Origin: Pseudovibrio denitrificans JCM 12308
Lineage (GTDB): Bacteria; Pseudomonadota; Alphaproteobacteria; Rhizobiales; Stappiaceae
Direction: 5' to 3'
DNA length: 64,000 nt
NCBI RefSeq assembly: GCF_001310815.1
Contig: NZ_BAZK01000002.1
Coordinates: 296,443 to 360,442, forward strand
Shown piece by piece: positions 957-41,948 of this stretch. The translations under genes were made by a program, and so were the position numbers. The notes below the pieces were generated by a model. That model saw only the letters and a program-made list of their open reading frames with translations. It was not told the origin of the DNA and searched no databases. Every line of letters begins with the position of its first letter. Within the stretch, counting starts at the first letter, position 1.

Positions 957-1041
957 GGAGGAGTGCCCGAGTGGCTAAAGGGGGCGGACTGTAAATCCGC
1001 TGGCTATGCCTACGTTGGTTCGAATCCAACCTCCTCCACCA
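957..1041 (+). tRNA. tRNA-Tyr (anticodon GTA)
   Basis: The acceptor stem GGAGGAG (957-963) pairs with CTCCTCC (1031-1037). It is followed by discriminator A and an encoded CCA (1039-1041). The anticodon GTA is at 991-993, inside the stem GCGGA/TCCGC. The long variable arm marks a class II tRNA, as expected for bacterial tRNA-Tyr. The T-arm carries the usual GGTTCGAATCC. Confidence 0.97.
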
Positions 1042-30908: not shown

Positions 30909-31063
30909 TCAATTATGCGGCTTTGATTGCAGAGTTTAGCGGGAGGCAATAGTGGCTGGTCTTCAGAACACAGAAGATGGGCTGATAATGTCAGCAGCCG
31001 AACTCTCTGGCCATTCTTAGCGAACGTTTCTTGCTGAGACAATGCTGCGCGAATTTCGGCAGC

Positions 31064-31092
31064 AAAAAAGGGCTGCGCGGGGCAGCCCTTTT
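31064..31092 (-). terminator. Intrinsic terminator after torA
   Basis: On the minus strand AAAAGGGCTGC pairs with GCAGCCCTTTT and is followed by a T-run, 23 bp beyond the torA stop. Confidence 0.9.
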
Positions 31093-31114
31093 CGGTGTTG
31101 TGACGGAACCTGAT

Positions 31115-33550
31115 TTATCCGTTCGTTGGAGCCGTGAAGACTTTGACGTCTGGCAGTTCGCCTTCGAATTTTTCGAAGTCTGCGATGACAGTGTGGCCGC
31201 AGTTGCCCTGTGCCAGCTTGGAAGTGCCAAGGTCTGGGGTGAGGGTGTTGACGTCACCGTATGCGCAGAGGCTACCGATTTTGCCGCCTTCGACCGGGTC
31301 ATACCAGCCACCTTCGTAAAGGCGGATGACGTTTGGCATGATGTCTTCGCTGACGATCGCGCCTGCCAGTGTCTGGCCACGGTCATTGAAGATGCGGATC
31401 ACGTCGCCAGACTTGATACCGCGAGCTTCTGCATCTTTCGGGTTGACCATGCATGGTTCGCGGTCTGCAACAGCGTATCCTTCGCGAAGGATTGTGCCGT
31501 TGAGCTGTGAATGCAGACGATCGTTCGGATGGCCGGTGTTAACGTGGATCGGGAACTTGGCGTCCGGACCATCGAGACGTTCGAGTGGTTCCATCCACAT
31601 TGGGTGCGGAGGACAATCGTCGTAGCCCATTTTCTCGATGTTCTTGGAGTAGATCTCGATCTTACCGGTCGGTGTACCCAGTGGTTCTAGAAGAGGATCT
31701 TCGCGGAAGTCTGCGTAGCGGACGTACTCCTTCGCTGCTTGTGAAACTGGATGGACGACGATGCCGTCTTCCCAGAACTTCTCGAACGCAGGCATTTCCA
31801 GGTTCTTGCTTGCAGCCTGTTTTTGAGCTTGCTCGTAGTAGTGACGGATCCAGTCCATTTCGTCACGACCATCGGTGTAGGCTTCCTTGTTGCCAAGGCG
31901 GTCTGCCAAGTCAACGAAGATGTCATACTCACTGCGGGCTTCGAAGACAGGATCAACGATCTTCTTCATAGCTACAGTTGCTTTGTTGGAGTAAGAGCCC
32001 ATGGCTTCGATGTCATTGCGTTCATAAGCAGAAGCTGCCGGAAGAACGATGTCAGCAAAGCGTGCTGTAGCGGTCCACTGGTAGTCCTGAACGATCACTG
32101 TTTCCAGTTTCTGCCAGGCCTTGATCATGCGGTTGCGATCCTGATGGTGGTGGAACGGGTTGCCGCCAGCCCAGTACGCGATCTTGATGTCAGGGAAGGT
32201 GTAGCGGGTGCCGTTGAAGTCATACTCTTCGCCCGGACGTTCCAGCATCTCAACAACACGAGCCACTGGAATGGACACTGATCCTTCCATCGCACCGCCG
32301 TCGTTCATGCCGGAAAGGGCAGGGCCATCGGAGGTTGGGGTGCCGCCGTTGGAGTAATGATAGGAAAGACCGAAACCACCGCCTGGCAGGCCGATCTGAC
32401 CCAGCATGGAAGCCAGCGTGACCAGCATCCAGTGTGGCTGTTCGCCGTGGTGCTGACGTTGCAGGGACCAGCCGCTGGTGAGCATGGTGCGGTTGCCCAT
32501 GAACAGACGTGCCAGTTCTTTGATCTTATCAGCCGGGACACCGCAGATTTCTGAGGCCCATTCAGCAGATTTCGGTGTCTGATCTGTCTCACCAGTCAGA
32601 TATGGGAGGAATTTGTCGAAACCTGCGGTGTATTCGTCCATGAAGTCGACGTCATACAGCTCTTCAACAAAGAGCGTGTGTGCCATGCCGAGCATCAATG
32701 CAACATCGGTCTGTGGTTTGACCTGCACCCATTCTGCATCCATGAACTCTGCGGTTTTGGATTTGAGTGGGTCGATGCAGATGACTTTTTTGCCGGTCTT
32801 CTTGAACTCTTCAAGATAGGTGTAGCTGTCGTGATCTGCGATCAGCCAGTCAATCTGGTTGGTTTTGATTGGGTCTGCACCCCAAACGACCAGCACTTCT
32901 GTATTCTCGACAACAACAGGCCAGACAGTCTGCTGTTCGTAGACTTCCAGTGTGCCTATGACGTGCGGCATGATCACCTGAGAGGCGCCGGTTGAGTAGT
33001 CGCCTGTATGGGTGACGTTTGGCATTTGCAGGCCGCGGTTGATCAGGCGGCGCAGCAGGCTGCGGCTGTTATGGATCTTACCTGCGCTCTTCCAGCCGTA
33101 TGTGCCGGTGAAGACGCTGCGTGGGCCATGTGTTGCCTTGGCGTATTTGAGTTCCTGAGCCACCAGATCCAACGCTTTGTCCCAGCTGACGCGGACAAAA
33201 TCGTTGCTGCCACGATCTTCAACATCTGCACCACGGCCTTTTTCAAGGTAAGCGCGGCGAACCATCGGATACTTGATGCGTGATGGTGAGTAGACGGAGT
33301 CCATAACACCTGCCAGCTGGTGGCTAGGATGCGGATCCTGCTCCCAAGGTTTTACTTCTGTCCAGCGACCATCTTTGACCACTGCGCGGAAAGCACCCCA
33401 GTGACACCCGGAGAGAACTTCTCCGTTGACTGCTGCTTGTGCGAAGCGTGGTGAGAAGATGGATGGAGCCAGTACACCCAGAGCGCCCAGTGTGGAAGCG
33501 CCCTTCAGGAAGCTACGACGAGACGTATAGTTTGCAATGATTTTCGACAT
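31115..33550 (-). CDS. torA: Trimethylamine-N-oxide reductase, molybdopterin catalytic subunit
   Basis: The protein has 811 residues from ATG 33550 (AGGGACAG upstream). It reduces TMAO to trimethylamine in the periplasm as a terminal electron acceptor. The twin-arginine signal SRRSFLKG is near residue 10 and export is folded, via Tat. The mature enzyme matches the TorA/DorA branch of the DMSO reductase family: GCHWGAFRAVV, TGTYGWKSAGKIHN, the Mo-ligand serine region THTGDYSTGA, and NTGHPNDRLHSQLN near the C-terminus. It is last in torC-torD-torA order, with its own upstream box cluster at 33650-33709. Confidence 0.96.
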   Translation of the reverse strand: MSKIIANYTSRRSFLKGASTLGALGVLAPSIFSPRFAQAAVNGEVLSGCHWGAFRAVVKDGRWTEVKPWEQDPHPSHQLAGVMDSVYSPSRIKYPMVRRAYLEKGRGADVEDRGSNDFVRVSWDKALDLVAQELKYAKATHGPRSVFTGTYGWKSAGKIHNSRSLLRRLINRGLQMPNVTHTGDYSTGASQVIMPHVIGTLEVYEQQTVWPVVVENTEVLVVWGADPIKTNQIDWLIADHDSYTYLEEFKKTGKKVICIDPLKSKTAEFMDAEWVQVKPQTDVALMLGMAHTLFVEELYDVDFMDEYTAGFDKFLPYLTGETDQTPKSAEWASEICGVPADKIKELARLFMGNRTMLTSGWSLQRQHHGEQPHWMLVTLASMLGQIGLPGGGFGLSYHYSNGGTPTSDGPALSGMNDGGAMEGSVSIPVARVVEMLERPGEEYDFNGTRYTFPDIKIAYWAGGNPFHHHQDRNRMIKAWQKLETVIVQDYQWTATARFADIVLPAASAYERNDIEAMGSYSNKATVAMKKIVDPVFEARSEYDIFVDLADRLGNKEAYTDGRDEMDWIRHYYEQAQKQAASKNLEMPAFEKFWEDGIVVHPVSQAAKEYVRYADFREDPLLEPLGTPTGKIEIYSKNIEKMGYDDCPPHPMWMEPLERLDGPDAKFPIHVNTGHPNDRLHSQLNGTILREGYAVADREPCMVNPKDAEARGIKSGDVIRIFNDRGQTLAGAIVSEDIMPNVIRLYEGGWYDPVEGGKIGSLCAYGDVNTLTPDLGTSKLAQGNCGHTVIADFEKFEGELPDVKVFTAPTNG

Positions 33551-33649
33551 CTCTGCTGTCCCTTTATTTTGGCAGAACAAATCGATGAGTTGAGCAAGTA
33601 GCCCGATGAAAACAGCCTGTTTTCTCTGAGTGTTACCGTAGTCACAGCG

Positions 33650-33709
33650 TGTAAACGTGGTTCGCGCGTTGATTGAACGGGATGTAAAATCGAGTAAACA
33701 GGTTGTAAA
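33650..33709 (-). promoter_or_regulatory. Candidate TorR boxes upstream of torA
   Basis: On the plus strand the hexamers TGTAAA (33650), TGTAAA (33683), AGTAAA (33693) and TGTAAA (33704) are spaced 33, 10 and 11 bp apart. On the torA strand they read as 11-bp direct repeats of TGTTTACA type. The torC upstream region has exactly the same spacing. E. coli TorR also binds decameric direct repeats, though of other sequence. Confidence 0.6.
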
Positions 33710-33718
33710 TGGTGAGAG

Positions 33719-34402
33719 TCAGGTGGTCGTGCCTGCTTCGTTCAAACGCGCCAGATCCATGCTGAGCCAGGTGTTGAGGGCAGCAGCTAGCTGCTCATAA
33801 AAGCCCGAAGGATCAAAGCGTTTGCAGCCTTCGCAGAATGACGGCACCCAGTTGAGCAGATGGTTTGACAGGAACCAGATCTGATTTTCATGAAGTGCAT
33901 GAGCTGATGCCTGATCGCCACTGGCTTCTGCCAGAGCTTCCCTGTCGATGTATTCCGCCAACACGTTGAGCTGTACACCCAGGTGGTCTGCTGGCTCTTT
34001 CAAAGAGCTTTCTATGGATATGCCAAGTTCCTGCAGGAGTTTGTTCATATCCGCTGTCGGCTTTTGGAAGAGCGTGCCTTTTTCGTTGTAATAGGCAGAC
34101 TCGTAGGGAGGTGCAGAGTGTGCACCACCAGCGCCTAGAAACAGGCGGGAGTAGGCGGTTGCCAGATCCAGTACCTGTGTCTGGTAATCTTCTTTTGGAA
34201 GCTGCGCCATTTGAGACAGCTGGTTGGTGAAAGAGGAGAGCTCTGGTGCCAATGCAAACACATCAAGCAGGGCTTTGCCTTCCGGAGAGCTGTAGCTCTC
34301 CAGAGTTTCGATTTTCACTTCGCTGGTGAAGAAGCTTGCCAGCCAGCGGTAGACCAGAGATCTGTCACTGTTGGAAAAGGTGATGGTTTCGTGCTTACCC
34401 AT
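33719..34402 (-). CDS. torD: TorA-specific chaperone
   Basis: The protein has 227 residues from ATG 34402 (GGGAG eight bases upstream). It binds apo-TorA and its Tat signal in the cytoplasm so that the molybdenum cofactor is inserted before export. It is all-helical with the family landmarks SLVYRWLASFFTSEV at the N-terminus, the YSRLFLGAGGAHSAPPYESAY core motif, and DHLGVQLNVLAEY. The start overlaps the torC stop by 8 bp, so translation is coupled. torA starts 168 bp after its stop. Confidence 0.95.
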   Translation of the reverse strand: MGKHETITFSNSDRSLVYRWLASFFTSEVKIETLESYSSPEGKALLDVFALAPELSSFTNQLSQMAQLPKEDYQTQVLDLATAYSRLFLGAGGAHSAPPYESAYYNEKGTLFQKPTADMNKLLQELGISIESSLKEPADHLGVQLNVLAEYIDREALAEASGDQASAHALHENQIWFLSNHLLNWVPSFCEGCKRFDPSGFYEQLAAALNTWLSMDLARLNEAGTTT

Positions 34403-35566
34403 GAGCTTCACTCCCACCTGTGTCTTTGGCATTGAGCTGCAGGTACTTTTGCAGGATGCGGTATTGTTCTTTGTCCAGTGAGATGAACCGCTTCATAGCT
34501 TTGAGTGAGCCGATCCACTGGTTGGCGAGGAAATGTTCGGGATCACGCAGGCCATGACATGTGGAGCAGGCTGCGGTGTACATTTCCTTGGTGTATGCCC
34601 AGAGCTGATCACCCTCTGAGATCAGGTTCTCCTTGGAAACCCAGGTGTCGATCTGAACCTGATGCCAGGTCAGTTCGGTGTCCGGATCGACTTCCGTCTT
34701 CAGGCGCTCGATCTTGTCGACGACCTTTTTGCCGACTGTGGCGGAGAAGATGCGCTGTCCTCTGAGAGCGTAGATCACGCGATCAACTTCATCCTGCTGC
34801 CAACCTGCAATGCGGACCTTCAGGAGATCACCACTGCGCTCAAGTACAGTCACATCCGTGCCACCCATCAGGCGCCCATCGCTCTTGCCGTTGCTTTCTG
34901 CTTTGGCCTGCTCAACGAAGAAGGGCTTGCTGGTAATGGCGTAGAGATGATCGGAGGTTGCGCCTTCGTTTGCGGAGAGGGCCTGCAACTCGTCGTACAT
35001 GGCTTTGTAGCCTGAGACATATCCGGCAGTTTGTGGGCGATGCCTTTGTGGCATGAGATGCAGGTCTCGCCATCCTTGAAGCCTTTCTGCATGGTTTCAG
35101 AGGCTTTTGGATGCTGCTTTGCGAAATCCATAGAGTCTTGCTTATGGCAGTTGCGGCATTGCTGGGAGTCGTTGGCTTCCATCTCTGCCCAGACACTCTT
35201 GGCCATGGTCAGGCGGTGTGCTTCAAACTTCTCCTTGGTGTCGATCTTACCGGTGAGCTTGGAGTAGACCTCTTTGGCTGCTTTGATCTTGCGGAGGATC
35301 TTTGGATAAGTTTCCTTGGGTACATGGCAATCTGAACAGACCGCCTGAACGCCGGATGCGTTCGAGAAGTGCGGAGACTTCTTGTACTCCTCATAGACCG
35401 TGCTGCGCATTTCGTGACAGGAGACGCAGAAGTCCAGCGTGTTGGTGTAATCCATTGCGGTGTGAAAGCCGCCCCAGAACACAATGCCACCCGCAAATGC
35501 GCCGATGAGTAATAAGCTTATTGGAAATATTGCGGTTTTCGTCCGCAGGAGTCGCCAGATTTTCAT
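34395..35566 (-). pseudogene. torC: Pentaheme c-type cytochrome TorC, frame broken once
   Basis: TorC carries electrons from menaquinol or ubiquinol to TorA. The N-terminal membrane anchor (FPISLLLIGAFAGGIVFWGG) is followed by four C-x-x-C-H heme sites of the NapC/NirT kind: CVSCH, CSDCH, CRNCH and CISCH. The C-terminal domain with the fifth heme (CSTCH) is in another frame. Adding one base at the CC of 35011-35012 joins HKLPDMSQ to GYKAMYDELQ, as expected for TorC, giving 390 aa. The break is probably a sequence error. It is the first gene of torC-torD, opposite torR. Confidence 0.95.
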
Positions 35567-35631
35567 CTTTTATCTCTTTTGCACTCTCGGACAAGTCGGT
35601 CCGTTCAATGCTCAGAGAATTAGACTAAGGT

Positions 35632-35691
35632 TGTAAATAGCGTTTGGAGGAAATATGAACGGGGTGTAGAATGGTGTAAACATGATGTAAA
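35632..35691. promoter_or_regulatory. Candidate TorR boxes between torC and torR
   Basis: TGTAAA (35632), TGTAGA (35665), TGTAAA (35675) and TGTAAA (35686) are spaced 33, 10 and 11 bp, the same layout as upstream of torA. They lie 66-125 bp upstream of torC and end 22 bp before torR, so TorR may also control itself. Confidence 0.62.
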
Positions 35692-35713
35692 CACACAAGC
35701 CGACAACAAGCAT

Positions 35714-36421
35714 ATGACAAACAAGGCACATATACTGGTCGTTGATGATGACCTAACCAGCCGCGTCGCTCTTTCCGGATATTTTGAGACTGAAGGATAC
35801 CGTGTTTCTGAAGCAGAAGACGGGGCGCAGATGCGTTCGGTGTTTGCGGGCGGTGATGTTGACCTGATCATGCTTGATATCCGGCTGCCAGATGATGATG
35901 GTCTGACCTTGCTGAAGGAGGTGCGCAAGCAGTCGGATGTGGGGATCATCATGGTGACGGGCCGCACAGATGAAGTGGACCGTATTGTTGCGCTTGAAAT
36001 GGAAGCGGACGACTATGTGATCAAGCCGTTCAGTCCGCGCGAGTTGCTGGCTCGTTCCAAAAATCTGCTGCGCCGGGTGAAGGCCGCGCGGGTGCCTGCT
36101 ATTGCTGATGAGCGTGTGTTGAGTTTTGCGGGCTGGTCTCTTGATCTGGACAAACGTGGGCTGCAATCGCCGGAAGGGGGGGAGGTGCGCCTGACACGCG
36201 GCGAGTTTGAGCTTCTTTCCGCGTTGGTCGAGAATAAAGGCCGTGTGCTCACCCGAGATAATCTACTGGATCACCTGAACCACCGGGAGTGGGACCCAAG
36301 TGACCGCACGGTCGATGTGCTGATTGGTCGGCTACGTCGCAAAATTGAAGTGAACCCCAAAGACCCAAGCCTGATCAGGACAGTGCATGGGATTGGTTAC
36401 GTGTTTACGGGTGTGCACTGA
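35714..36421 (+). CDS. torR: OmpR-family response regulator, TMAO-responsive
   Basis: The protein has 235 residues from ATG 35714. The receiver domain has the acidic pocket VVDDD at residues 10-13 and the phospho-acceptor Asp55 in LIMLDIRLP. The Lys of the KPFSPREL switch follows. The C-terminal winged helix (RLTRGEFELLSALVENKGRVLTRDNLL, VDVLIGRLRRKIE) binds DNA as direct-repeat dimers. Divergent placement from torCD and the shared box pattern point to control of the TMAO genes. The kinase partner is probably the convergent gene at 36430. Confidence 0.92.
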   Translation: MTNKAHILVVDDDLTSRVALSGYFETEGYRVSEAEDGAQMRSVFAGGDVDLIMLDIRLPDDDGLTLLKEVRKQSDVGIIMVTGRTDEVDRIVALEMEADDYVIKPFSPRELLARSKNLLRRVKAARVPAIADERVLSFAGWSLDLDKRGLQSPEGGEVRLTRGEFELLSALVENKGRVLTRDNLLDHLNHREWDPSDRTVDVLIGRLRRKIEVNPKDPSLIRTVHGIGYVFTGVH

Positions 36422-36429
36422 CGTCGAGT

Positions 36430-38814
36430 TTAGCTTGACGCCTCTGTAAGGCAGCTGAGCCAGGTTTCATTCAACTTGTGCTTTGAGGCTGTGTAGCTGA
36501 CCTCCAGAGCGCTGAAAATCTCCATGACTTTATGCTTTTCTTCCTTTTGAGCAGCCTGTTCCAGCTGCTCGGAGAGCTTCGCGACATGAGTGAGGCCTAC
36601 ATTGTAGGAGGCTCCCTTCATGCTATGGGCTTTGTCTCTGATCTTGGGCAGATTTTGTGTTGCGATGAGGTTGCGTAGTTCTGGAATGAAGTAGCGCGAT
36701 GTTTGCATATATGCATCGACAATGCGTTTTGCGCGGTTTTCTCCCAACATGTCGAAATGACCACGTAACACTGTTGTATCAATGAGTTCTGTTGGTTGCT
36801 CCTGCAGGCTCTGTCGGGATTTGCGTGCGAACATGGCTCTGTCGGAAAGGCAGGAGGCAATGGCGTCTTCCAGATCTTCCTGAGAGTAGGGCTTGCCGAG
36901 GAAACCATCGGCGCCAGCGGTGAAGCTCTTTTCAATATCTGCCAGGAAGATACAGGCGCTTTGAACGATGACAGGAATGCTGGAGATATGGTGGTAGTGG
37001 GATGCGCGAATGCGGGCGATGGTGTCTGTTCCACTCAAGCCGGGCATGCGGTTGTCCATCAGCACTAAATCGAACCGATGTTCATGCAGTTGAGACAGAG
37101 CCTCTTCACCGCTCGCGACGGTGAAGCAGGTGTGGCCTGCCTTCTCTAAGAAACCTTCTGTCACAAGCTGATTGACCTTGTTGTCTTCCACCAGAAGGAT
37201 CTTCAACTTCTTGGGTTTCCAGGTATCCTGCTTATCTTCGATGATGCTAACGGTCTGATCTGCTTCGTAAAACGGAACTGTGAAGTGGAAGATTGCACCT
37301 TGCGTCTGGTTTGCTTTGCAGCCGATCTCACCACCCATAGCATTCACGAGGCGTTTTGAGATGGCGAGACCGAGGCCTGTTCCGCCATAAAGCCTGTTGG
37401 TGGCCGCGTTTTGCTGTACAAACGGTTCAAACAGGTAGCTGTGATCACCTGTTGGTAGCCCCACGCCTGTGTCTTTCACCATGATCTGTAAACAGCGCGC
37501 GCGCCTGATCTGGCTTATTGGGATATGCACGCTGATGGTGATGGAGCCTTCATAGGTGAACTTGATGGCATTGCTGACGAAATTCAGAAGGACCTGCCGG
37601 ATTTTGGTCGGATCGGCGCGCAGGATTTCAGGCACATGTGCGTGGACGTCGATCAGTAACTCAAGGCCTTTGTCTTCGGCCTGTTGTCTTGTCAGATCCA
37701 CCACCTGCTTGATGACTTGCCTGATTTTGAAGTCGACCGTCTCCAGCTCGAGAGAACCTGCTTCCACCTTAGAGTAGTCCAGTACATCGTTGAGAATGGA
37801 ACGCAGCATCTCACTTGAGGATATGATGCCGTCCAGGTAACGATGCTGCTCTGGCTTAAGGCCTGTGTCCTTCAGGAGATCTGCCAGTCCAAGAACCCCA
37901 TTCAATGGCGTTCTGATTTCATGACTCATGGATGCGAGGAAAGTGGACTTGGCACTGTTGGCGGCTTCGGCTTCTTCCTTTGCCTTTTTATGATCGGTGA
38001 CATCGTTGAGGATGAGGATCATGCCGGGAAACTTGCGGCTGAAATCAACGATGTGCTGGGCACGGATGTCGAAGACGCGTGGACCAACGGCGGTATCCAG
38101 CGTGACATCTGTAAAACAGCTTTCCAGTTCCTGAGGTAGGTAAGGCTGCAACTGATTGGTCAGCACATCGCGCGTTGCTTCGTTGACGTATTTGATCTTG
38201 GTATTCTGCAGACCGCAAAACACCGCTTGAGCTGCATAGTTGAGGTCGTTGACCTTTCCATTCTCATCCATCAGCACAATAGGATCGCTCAGGCTCTCCA
38301 GAATGGTGAGGTACTTGTTTTTCTCATTGGTGATGCGACGGTTTTCTTCGTAGGCCTCATGCAGCTTCCTCTCTTCTGCAACACCACTCCATTCCGTCGA
38401 AAAACCGAGTTCCATGAAATCGAAATAGCGTAGCAGATAAGATCGGTACCGAGCTTTCTCAGTCTCTGAAAAGCTTTGCGATTCAATGAGATCCATATAG
38501 GCGCTGCGATAGTATTTTGTCAGGCCGAGGAAGTAACCCAATGTTACACCTCTGGATCGGTGGCTTCTGGCTTGTTCCACGCCAAATGCTGCAAAGGGGT
38601 GACTGGAAAAGTCTGAGCTGACATCTATTTCCGGAGGCGTATCGTAGGCTTCCATTGCTTTCACAATGGATCTTGATAGACCCTCTACGGATACACGCCA
38701 TGCTTCCCGAAGTGTTGCGGTGTATTGGGTGTAACCCTGATTTTTTGCATAATAAAAGATGCGATCAATCAGGGTGTTTTCGTTTTCTAAAATCAGATCT
38801 CGCAGCACATGCAT
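36430..38814 (-). CDS. Hybrid histidine kinase with PAS, receiver and HPt domains
   Basis: The protein has 794 residues from ATG 38814, with GGAGG upstream. The order is: an uncharacterised all-helical N-terminal domain (1-160), PAS domain (about 165-275), HisKA with phospho-His298 in SMSHEIRTPLNG, HATPase with N-box NFVSNAIKFT and G-boxes DTGVGLP and GGTGLGLAIS, receiver with Asp587 (VLMDNRMPG), and HPt with His730 (KAHSMKGASY). No membrane segment is visible, unlike classical TorS, which has a periplasmic sensor. The gene ends 8 bp from the convergent torR end, so it is the likely TorS counterpart, with a cytoplasmic input. Confidence 0.9.
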   Translation of the reverse strand: MHVLRDLILENENTLIDRIFYYAKNQGYTQYTATLREAWRVSVEGLSRSIVKAMEAYDTPPEIDVSSDFSSHPFAAFGVEQARSHRSRGVTLGYFLGLTKYYRSAYMDLIESQSFSETEKARYRSYLLRYFDFMELGFSTEWSGVAEERKLHEAYEENRRITNEKNKYLTILESLSDPIVLMDENGKVNDLNYAAQAVFCGLQNTKIKYVNEATRDVLTNQLQPYLPQELESCFTDVTLDTAVGPRVFDIRAQHIVDFSRKFPGMILILNDVTDHKKAKEEAEAANSAKSTFLASMSHEIRTPLNGVLGLADLLKDTGLKPEQHRYLDGIISSSEMLRSILNDVLDYSKVEAGSLELETVDFKIRQVIKQVVDLTRQQAEDKGLELLIDVHAHVPEILRADPTKIRQVLLNFVSNAIKFTYEGSITISVHIPISQIRRARCLQIMVKDTGVGLPTGDHSYLFEPFVQQNAATNRLYGGTGLGLAISKRLVNAMGGEIGCKANQTQGAIFHFTVPFYEADQTVSIIEDKQDTWKPKKLKILLVEDNKVNQLVTEGFLEKAGHTCFTVASGEEALSQLHEHRFDLVLMDNRMPGLSGTDTIARIRASHYHHISSIPVIVQSACIFLADIEKSFTAGADGFLGKPYSQEDLEDAIASCLSDRAMFARKSRQSLQEQPTELIDTTVLRGHFDMLGENRAKRIVDAYMQTSRYFIPELRNLIATQNLPKIRDKAHSMKGASYNVGLTHVAKLSEQLEQAAQKEEKHKVMEIFSALEVSYTASKHKLNETWLSCLTEASS

Positions 38815-40502: not shown

Positions 40503-40697
40503 AGAATGGTAGGCATTTGCAAGCTGACCTATGACGGTTTAGACGCCTGTTTTGCACAAGCTCTGGAGAAAACCCCGGAAGGTCGTCACAAGCTGTCAGG
40601 CCGTCAGAAACAGCAGCAAACGGGGAATACTTTCAACTGACATTTTTGCATGTGAGATGGTTCTTGTCATGGGCCGTCAGCAGGAGAGGTGTACCTG

Positions 40698-41948
40698 ATG
40701 CCCAACGTTACAAAGCGGACTGTGGATGCTGCTGAGCCCAAGGCGAAAAAGTACTTCGTGTGGGACGGCAAGCTTTCTGGGTTTGGCCTGCAGGTGATGC
40801 CAAGTGGGCACAAGTCGTTTGTTGTTCAGTATCGCACCTTGGAAGGCCGGTCGCGTCGAATGACGCTTGGCAAGTATGGTGGGCTCACTCCCGATGAGGC
40901 GAGGGGGCTTGCTATCGAAGTTCTTGCTAAAGTACGCAACGGGGAAGATCCAACGGTGCACCGCAAGGTCATCCGGCATGCTCCCACGGTGAATGATCTG
41001 CTCGACATGTATCTGAGTGAACATGTTGAGGTGCACAATAAGCCGAAGTCGCTCATTGAGATCCGGCGCATTCTGGATCGTTGTGTGCGCAAGCCTCTGG
41101 GCAAGTCCAAACTGGCTTCTGTAACTCGTCAGGACATTTCCAAGCTGCATCGCTCCATGAGGCGTACACCAAGGCAGGCTAATCATGTGCTGGCGATCAT
41201 ATCCAAAGCCTTCAATCTGGCTGAGGTGTGGGGCTTGAGGCCTGAACACAGCAATCCAGTGCGGCTTGTGAAGCGCTACAAGGAGAATGAGCGAGATCGG
41301 TTTCTTTCAGGTGATGAGTTACAACGTTTAGGCAAGACGCTGAAGATCGCCGAGAAGGAGGGGCTGCCCTGGATCATCAAAGCCAAGCCTGAAAATCGAA
41401 AGCATCTGCGCCACGACATTGAGAAGCGTCGGACGCCTGTAAACCCCATGGCGCTCTATTGCCTGAAGTTGTTGCTCTACACTGGAGCACGGCTCATGGA
41501 GATTGCATCACTTGAATGGGATCATGTGGACTTTGACCAAGGCACCATTGCTTTACCTTCCAAGAAAGGCGACGGACGCAAACCACACCCGGTGAGTGAG
41601 AATGTTCTCGACATCCTTGCTGACATTCCTCACCTTGAGGATTCTCCATATGTGCTGGCCCGGATCAATGATCCAACACGGCATATCTCTAAGGAGCTGG
41701 TGGAGAATGCATGGCAGCGCGTACGTTACCATGCAGGCATTCCTGATGTACGTATCCACGATCTACGCCACACGGTTGGCACCTTCGCAGCCCAAGCAGG
41801 CAGCAATGCTTTCCTTATCAGTCACCTCTTGCGCCACCGCAACGTGACTATCACCAACCGCTACGTGAACCATGACGCACACCCCATCCGGGTGCTGTCA
41901 GAGACGGTTGGAGAGCGGATTGAGGCGGGGCTAGAAGGAGGGGAGTGA
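40698..41948 (+). CDS. int: Tyrosine recombinase (P4-like integrase)
   Basis: The protein has 416 residues from ATG 40698; AGGAGAGG lies eight bases upstream, which decides against the GTG at 40689. The N-terminal arm-binding DUF4102-like domain (WDGKLSGFGLQVMPSG) is followed by the core-binding and catalytic domains. Catalytic residues are visible: Arg in YTGARLMEIASLEW, H-x-x-R in HDLRHTVG, and the terminal Tyr in TNRYVNHD. It sits about 330 bp inside the left tRNA-Thr fragment and should move this element in and out of tRNA-Thr. Confidence 0.95.
   Translation: MPNVTKRTVDAAEPKAKKYFVWDGKLSGFGLQVMPSGHKSFVVQYRTLEGRSRRMTLGKYGGLTPDEARGLAIEVLAKVRNGEDPTVHRKVIRHAPTVNDLLDMYLSEHVEVHNKPKSLIEIRRILDRCVRKPLGKSKLASVTRQDISKLHRSMRRTPRQANHVLAIISKAFNLAEVWGLRPEHSNPVRLVKRYKENERDRFLSGDELQRLGKTLKIAEKEGLPWIIKAKPENRKHLRHDIEKRRTPVNPMALYCLKLLLYTGARLMEIASLEWDHVDFDQGTIALPSKKGDGRKPHPVSENVLDILADIPHLEDSPYVLARINDPTRHISKELVENAWQRVRYHAGIPDVRIHDLRHTVGTFAAQAGSNAFLISHLLRHRNVTITNRYVNHDAHPIRVLSETVGERIEAGLEGGE

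Follow-up and report, generated by a model that had tools for sequence, protein, structure and literature searches.

Within the window, by which we mean the whole stretch of 64,000 nucleotides at 296443-360442 of contig C2 from Pseudovibrio denitrificans JCM 12308 analysed here, torC, torD and torA lie on the minus strand in the order C-D-A. torC (34395-35566) encodes a pentahaem cytochrome, torD (33719-34402) a chaperone that scores above the cutoff of PRK04976, and torA (31115-33550) a TMAO/S-N-oxide reductase that passes the cutoffs of TIGR00509 and PRK15102 and falls below that of the stricter TIGR02164. This TorA is 98% and 96% identical to TorA in two Pseudovibrio records. Transcribed divergently from torC is the response regulator gene torR (35714-36421, plus strand), whose best model is PRK10766 TorR with 268.6 bits, just under the cutoff of 275. 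Beyond torR, on the minus strand, a gene at 36430-38814 encodes a TorS-like hybrid kinase with HisKA, HATPase, receiver and Hpt domains, its best model, TIGR02956 TorS, remaining below cutoff. By hydropathy this kinase has no membrane-spanning segment (maximum 1.55 versus 2.52 in E. coli TorS), and about 160 N-terminal residues without domain assignment precede a PAS-like stretch; signal sensing may be cytoplasmic. In the present assembly torC is split into two overlapping frames; the gene is intact in five relatives. The 6.05-Mb genome holds a second tor cluster on contig C13 (L045), in which the torA and torC matches are also broken in two, and draft sequence errors are therefore likely. A terminator scan of 31000-36500 found none. 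Close to the tor block is an integrase-like ORF (40689-41948, identified by eye only); the sole tRNA gene detected in the window (957-1041) is distant from it.

Upstream of both torC and torA, on the coding (minus) strand, we found the same array of five 7-base GTTYAYA-like boxes, spaced B1-11-B2-10-B3-11-B4-22-B5. The torC array fills 35632-35692 of the torR-torC intergenic region, with B1 21 bp from the torR start codon. Its boxes are GTTTACA (B1, 35686-35692), GTTTACA (B2, 35675-35681), TTCTACA (B3, 35665-35671), GTTCATA (B4, 35654-35660) and ATTTACA (B5, 35632-35638), all five supported by an alignment with five genus relatives and G050 and the last adjoining a putative -10 element of P_torC, TAATTC (35617-35622), 9 nt past B5. 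The torA array consists of ATTTACA (B1, 33704-33710), GTTTACT (B2, 33693-33699), TTTTACA (B3, 33683-33689), GTTCAAT (B4, 33672-33678) and GTTTACA (B5, 33650-33656), all likewise supported by the alignment, and is followed, again 9 nt past B5, by TACGGT (33635-33640), a weak candidate for the -10 element of an internal promoter, P_torA. The sequence-only reading had described four TGTAAA boxes per site, starting at 33650, 33683, 33693 and 33704 before torA and at 35632, 35665, 35675 and 35686 before torC, with an identical 33-10-11 spacing. All eight starts are correct, and the spacing is indeed identical by coordinates. The hexamer itself is exact in only six of the eight, 33693 being AGTAAA and 35665 TGTAGA, and the four boxes turn out to be five, B4 having been overlooked at both sites inside the 33-bp step (11 + 22). 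Direct repeats of the OmpR/TorR type, as proposed there, are supported. TGTAAA is frequent in the window (29 observed versus 20.5 expected), so the hexamer by itself says little, and we dropped it as the unit in favor of the GTTYAYA-like box within a five-box array.

The arrays stand well apart from chance. The score matrix used for the window, the locus scan and the four-box test was built from window and E. coli boxes, which makes any E. coli score from that matrix circular. Against 44.7 and 41.7 for the two sites, nothing else in the 64 kb scores above 11.0, and the top score among 400 dinucleotide-shuffled sequences, five from each of 80 loci, is 20.2. When the 6.05-Mb genome was searched with the B1-B4 pattern at up to three mismatches, the two sites were the only matches and the reversed pattern had none; with a three-box pattern, the torC site was the sole match. 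In a class-wide sample of 385 genomes of whatever torA content, three genomes had a match at up to two mismatches: this genome, G172, with an array at the torD-torA junction (L056), and G422, with two mismatches. Reversed control patterns also matched at this level, four times in two genomes, so lone matches may be due to chance.

Within the genus, 6 of 16 genomes carry both arrays with no mismatch to a slightly wider pattern, and these are the six with full-length TorA of this type (at least 91%). Three further matches, with three mismatches each, were found in G005 and G001, and the reversed control likewise gave three. Across relatives the boxes are conserved, the opposite of the pattern (genes kept, boxes not) that the sequence-only reading had named as evidence against it. 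The closest relatives add little weight, since hardly any base varies there in boxes or in spacers. Between the window and G050, box bases agree at 34 of 35 positions and spacer bases at 15 of 26 in the torC array, compared with 29 of 35 and 12 of 26 in the torA array. No array was found in G004, which lacks the tor block at this place: the missing part begins inside torA and takes in the rest of the block through torS, and the last 56 TorA residues remain (L048 2081-2303). Further tor loci were given a four-box score at E. coli-like spacing, with the matrix used below for the comparison with E. coli. It is 19.2, 19.2 and 20.9 for the second tor cluster on C13 and its two relatives, 43.1 and 20.0 for the torR-torA pairs of G048 and G002, and 24.7 for the Breoghania tor locus. 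No convincing array was obtained by this score in the diverged tor loci of G001 (8.0), G012 (7.3) and G013 (8.9 and 6.6) or in the second locus of G003 (1.5). The Breoghania locus (L038 531-8285) has three tandem torA genes downstream of a single torC-torD, and its two best array places lie outside the intervals between the torA copies.

To look beyond the genus, we scanned loci anchored on TorA rather than on the motif and took the best 80 of 353, which include close kin that are not independent. At a threshold score of at least 25, these 80 loci hold 48 arrays, with 26 before torC, 19 before torA and 3 elsewhere. Thirty of them have a torR-torC pair, defined as divergent genes with TorR at least 45% identical, and the torC array is present in 26 of these 30 and in none of the other 50. 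The torA array occurs in 15 of the 30 and in 4 of the other 50, namely L060, L062 and L066, whose records are short or start close upstream with no torR seen, and L123, with TorR at 43.6% identity. At this threshold, the torC array is missing from four of the 30 pairs (L077, L090, L130 and L133). By a four-box score with the window and E. coli matrix, the first three exceed the 99.9% shuffle level of 15.9, and L133 does not rise above 12; this null is not clean, since the highest of 7080 shuffles reached 27.3. Overall, that score passes 31 of 39 torC and 21 of 79 torA upstream stretches, and it also exceeds the 99.9% level before torC in L135 (21.3) and L075 (17.4), where torR is elsewhere in the locus. 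In L072 and L074 the torC array is changed in its inner spacing and scores low (26), and L125, at 22.1, is below the threshold of 25. Position frequencies omit L058, L059, L074 and L085, which the counts of pairs and of the TA described below include.

The torD-torA gap was measured between tblastn matches and not between codons. Among the best 80 of 353 loci, the gap is 163-259 bp in 14 loci with both the torR-torC pair and a torA array, and 20-139 bp in 11 of the 15 pair loci without a torA array. The four longer gaps without an array are 217 bp (L082), 231 bp (L090), 262 bp (L063) and 2806 bp (L130). In L082 and L090, both Rhodoferax, degenerate boxes followed by TAGACT are visible by eye, with four-box scores not above 12.

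The arrays also share a promoter-like signature. Among the best 80 of 353 loci, 20 of 26 torC and 15 of 19 torA arrays have TA 9 nt past B5; no other offset from 50 to 74 has it in more than two torC or three torA arrays. This TA would take the place of the first two -10 bases if TorR fills the -35 region, and we read it as a -10-like signature, kept at a fixed distance for torA arrays as well. A second conserved dinucleotide, AA, precedes B5 by 4 nt in 20 of 26 torC and 15 of 19 torA arrays (position B2+37/38; 35643-35644 before torC and 33661-33662 before torA in the window) and is perhaps a hidden half-site. A sigma-70 consensus scan gave nothing at the predicted -10 elements; it matched once, within the torC array (35680-35652), less often than in shuffled sequence. 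Such a silent consensus scan fits, without proving, an activator-dependent promoter.

Taken together, these patterns make it highly probable, in our judgment, that the operon has two TorR-dependent promoters: P_torC, which would span the torR leader, and the internal P_torA. The sequence-only reading had already suggested an internal torA promoter, and this suggestion gains support because the same array precedes torA in several genera, with TA at the same distance past B5 as before torC. In the mechanism we propose, dimers of phosphorylated TorR would line one face of the DNA, bound to repeats 10-11 bp apart (B1-B4) and then to B5, 22 bp further on. Since B5 sits at the -35 location, 9 nt from the -10 element, TorR bound there would contact and recruit RNA polymerase, standing in for the -35 contact. 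From the -10 elements, transcription is predicted to start near 35610 for torC and near 33628 for torA. TorR at the torC array probably also tunes its own level, because the array lies so close to the torR start; E. coli torR is reportedly autoregulated too, going by the title of work by Ansaldi in 2000. The torA array would give the reductase gene its own start, making it possible to produce more TorA than TorC and TorD on one signal.

A different role for the torA array deserves to be weighed here, in which TorR binds both arrays and initiation occurs at P_torC only, the torA array serving to tune the torCDA message as roadblock, titration site or looping partner. The boxes would be conserved equally under this scheme, which also draws strength from the weak TACGGT in the window and from the torA start being a prediction. 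However, a mere binding site would have no need of the fixed TA after B5 that 15 of the 19 torA arrays share, and we therefore consider this role unlikely and prefer two promoters.

Both promoters presuppose that TorR is the protein that reads the boxes. Regulators of the OmpR/PhoB class commonly use direct repeats spaced by 10-11 bp, so another of this type might in principle bind here instead. The arrays, however, are tied closely to tor genes. In 20 genomes picked for carrying an array, the five-box pattern at up to three mismatches gave 32 matches, from 19 genomes, and the reversed pattern none; in the remaining genome, G459 (L078), the pattern was not found at this level. By contig and position, all 32 lie inside tor loci. 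Thirty are torC or torA arrays, among them that of L123, which faces a contig end next to torR with its target gene out of view, and two precede an alpha/beta-hydrolase gene. Moreover, torC arrays track the torR-torC pair in the best 80 of 353 loci (26/30 versus 0/50), their geometry is nearly that of E. coli, and no array was found in G004, which is without the tor block at its place. Another OmpR/PhoB-type regulator is thus very improbable as the reader of these boxes. Least credible of all, to the point of being practically dismissed, is that torA recently received a functionless copy of the array at torC: the geometry is equal at both places, but the two window arrays share 29 of 35 box bases and only 12 of 26 spacer bases, a mismatch of spacers on which we rejected a duplication relic, and torA arrays are found in several genera.

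The hydrolase gene lies beside torS, and the arrays before it are at position 578 in both L072 (score 39.7) and L074 (39.8); the two genomes are those of Denitrobaculum tricleocarpae and an isolate of the Kiloniellaceae. The gene, read in L072 only (678-1583), encodes a protein that by eye resembles haloalkane dehalogenases, and in Denitrobaculum it is an unexpected candidate target.

With TorR-dependent P_torC and P_torA as the preferred reading, these results offer a sequence grammar, open to testing, by which TorR/DorR would control TMAO and DMSO respiration; it is composed of five boxes, fixed steps and a fixed -10 element. It predicts two TorR promoters in 15 of the 30 torR-linked torCDA loci among the best 80 of 353, and it could be used for annotating TMAO- or DMSO-inducible genes of marine bacteria. 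The TorR-binding tor boxes of E. coli and the DorS/DorR system of Rhodobacter are already known, as PMC9239176 and PMC9603517, respectively, describe. As far as our search of the open literature shows, the E. coli-like five-box grammar and the regular occurrence of another array before torA are new; that search, whose reach did not extend to the older Rhodobacter DorR/DmsR footprint papers, found no mention of an additional TorR/DorR array in front of torA or dorA.

The grammar links the tor boxes of E. coli with those of Alphaproteobacteria. The consensus of the E. coli tor box given in PMC9239176 is CTGTTCATAT, and torC B4 with its flank, CCGTTCATAT, agrees with it at 9 of 10 positions. Most other boxes in the window are GTTTACA-like, whereas those of the E. 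coli torC region are GTTCATA. To compare spacing, we searched the torR-torC region of E. coli K-12 over 106,470 free-spacing placements, using a matrix built from arrays of Alphaproteobacteria other than Pseudovibrio, with L058, L059, L074 and L085 omitted; the arrays behind the matrix were picked by geometry, and the search on E. coli and on the window does not presuppose it. The best spacing is 10, 21, 22 in K-12 (score 24.2; runner-up 15.7) and 11, 21, 22 in the window at both torC (39.9 versus 31.1) and torA (33.0 versus 28.9). The contrast with the E. coli tor box drawn by the sequence-only reading finds no support in the B4 match and the nearly equal spacing, although most boxes read GTTTACA and not GTTCATA. 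In both species, the array is made of direct repeats in the torR-torC intergenic region, with 21- and 22-bp steps from the second box, and E. coli has TAAGAT 9 nt past the last box. The E. coli region differs in having no recognisable B3, first two boxes 10 rather than 11 bp apart, and GC where the arrays here have AA before B5. Between the regulators, in a stretch that we take to be the recognition helix, RTVDVLIGRLRRKI here and RTVDVLIRRLRHKL in E. coli TorR, 11 of 14 residues agree. The E. coli gene order is torCAD, unlike the C-D-A of the window, and in the E. coli annotation torA overlaps the torC end, so there is no gap there for a second array. We put forward tentatively, leaning slightly toward doubt, that the five-box array with its -10 element may be a portable TorR module that predates the divergence of Alpha- and Gammaproteobacteria, with a second copy before torA in many torCDA operons and with the AA before B5 as a hidden sixth half-site, three TorR dimers tiling the promoter. 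If a second module does precede torA, the reductase would be inducible separately from the cytochrome and the chaperone.

A close counterpart in gene layout is Rhodobacter capsulatus, in which DorS/DorR regulates dorCDA according to PMC9603517. Its locus (L084) shares the order C-D-A, the divergent regulator and a five-box array before dorC; it differs in that nothing upstream of dorA reached our thresholds for an array, and its torD and torA matches are 77 bp apart. In a wider frame, the arrays resemble promoters of the PhoB type. Activation there works through 11-bp direct repeats, of which the last replaces the -35 element about 10 bp from the -10, an arrangement matched here by the 11-bp repeats, by the last box in place of -35 and by a similar distance to the -10 element. 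In contrast to those promoters, the arrays described here extend to five boxes over about 60 bp and include one 22-bp step.
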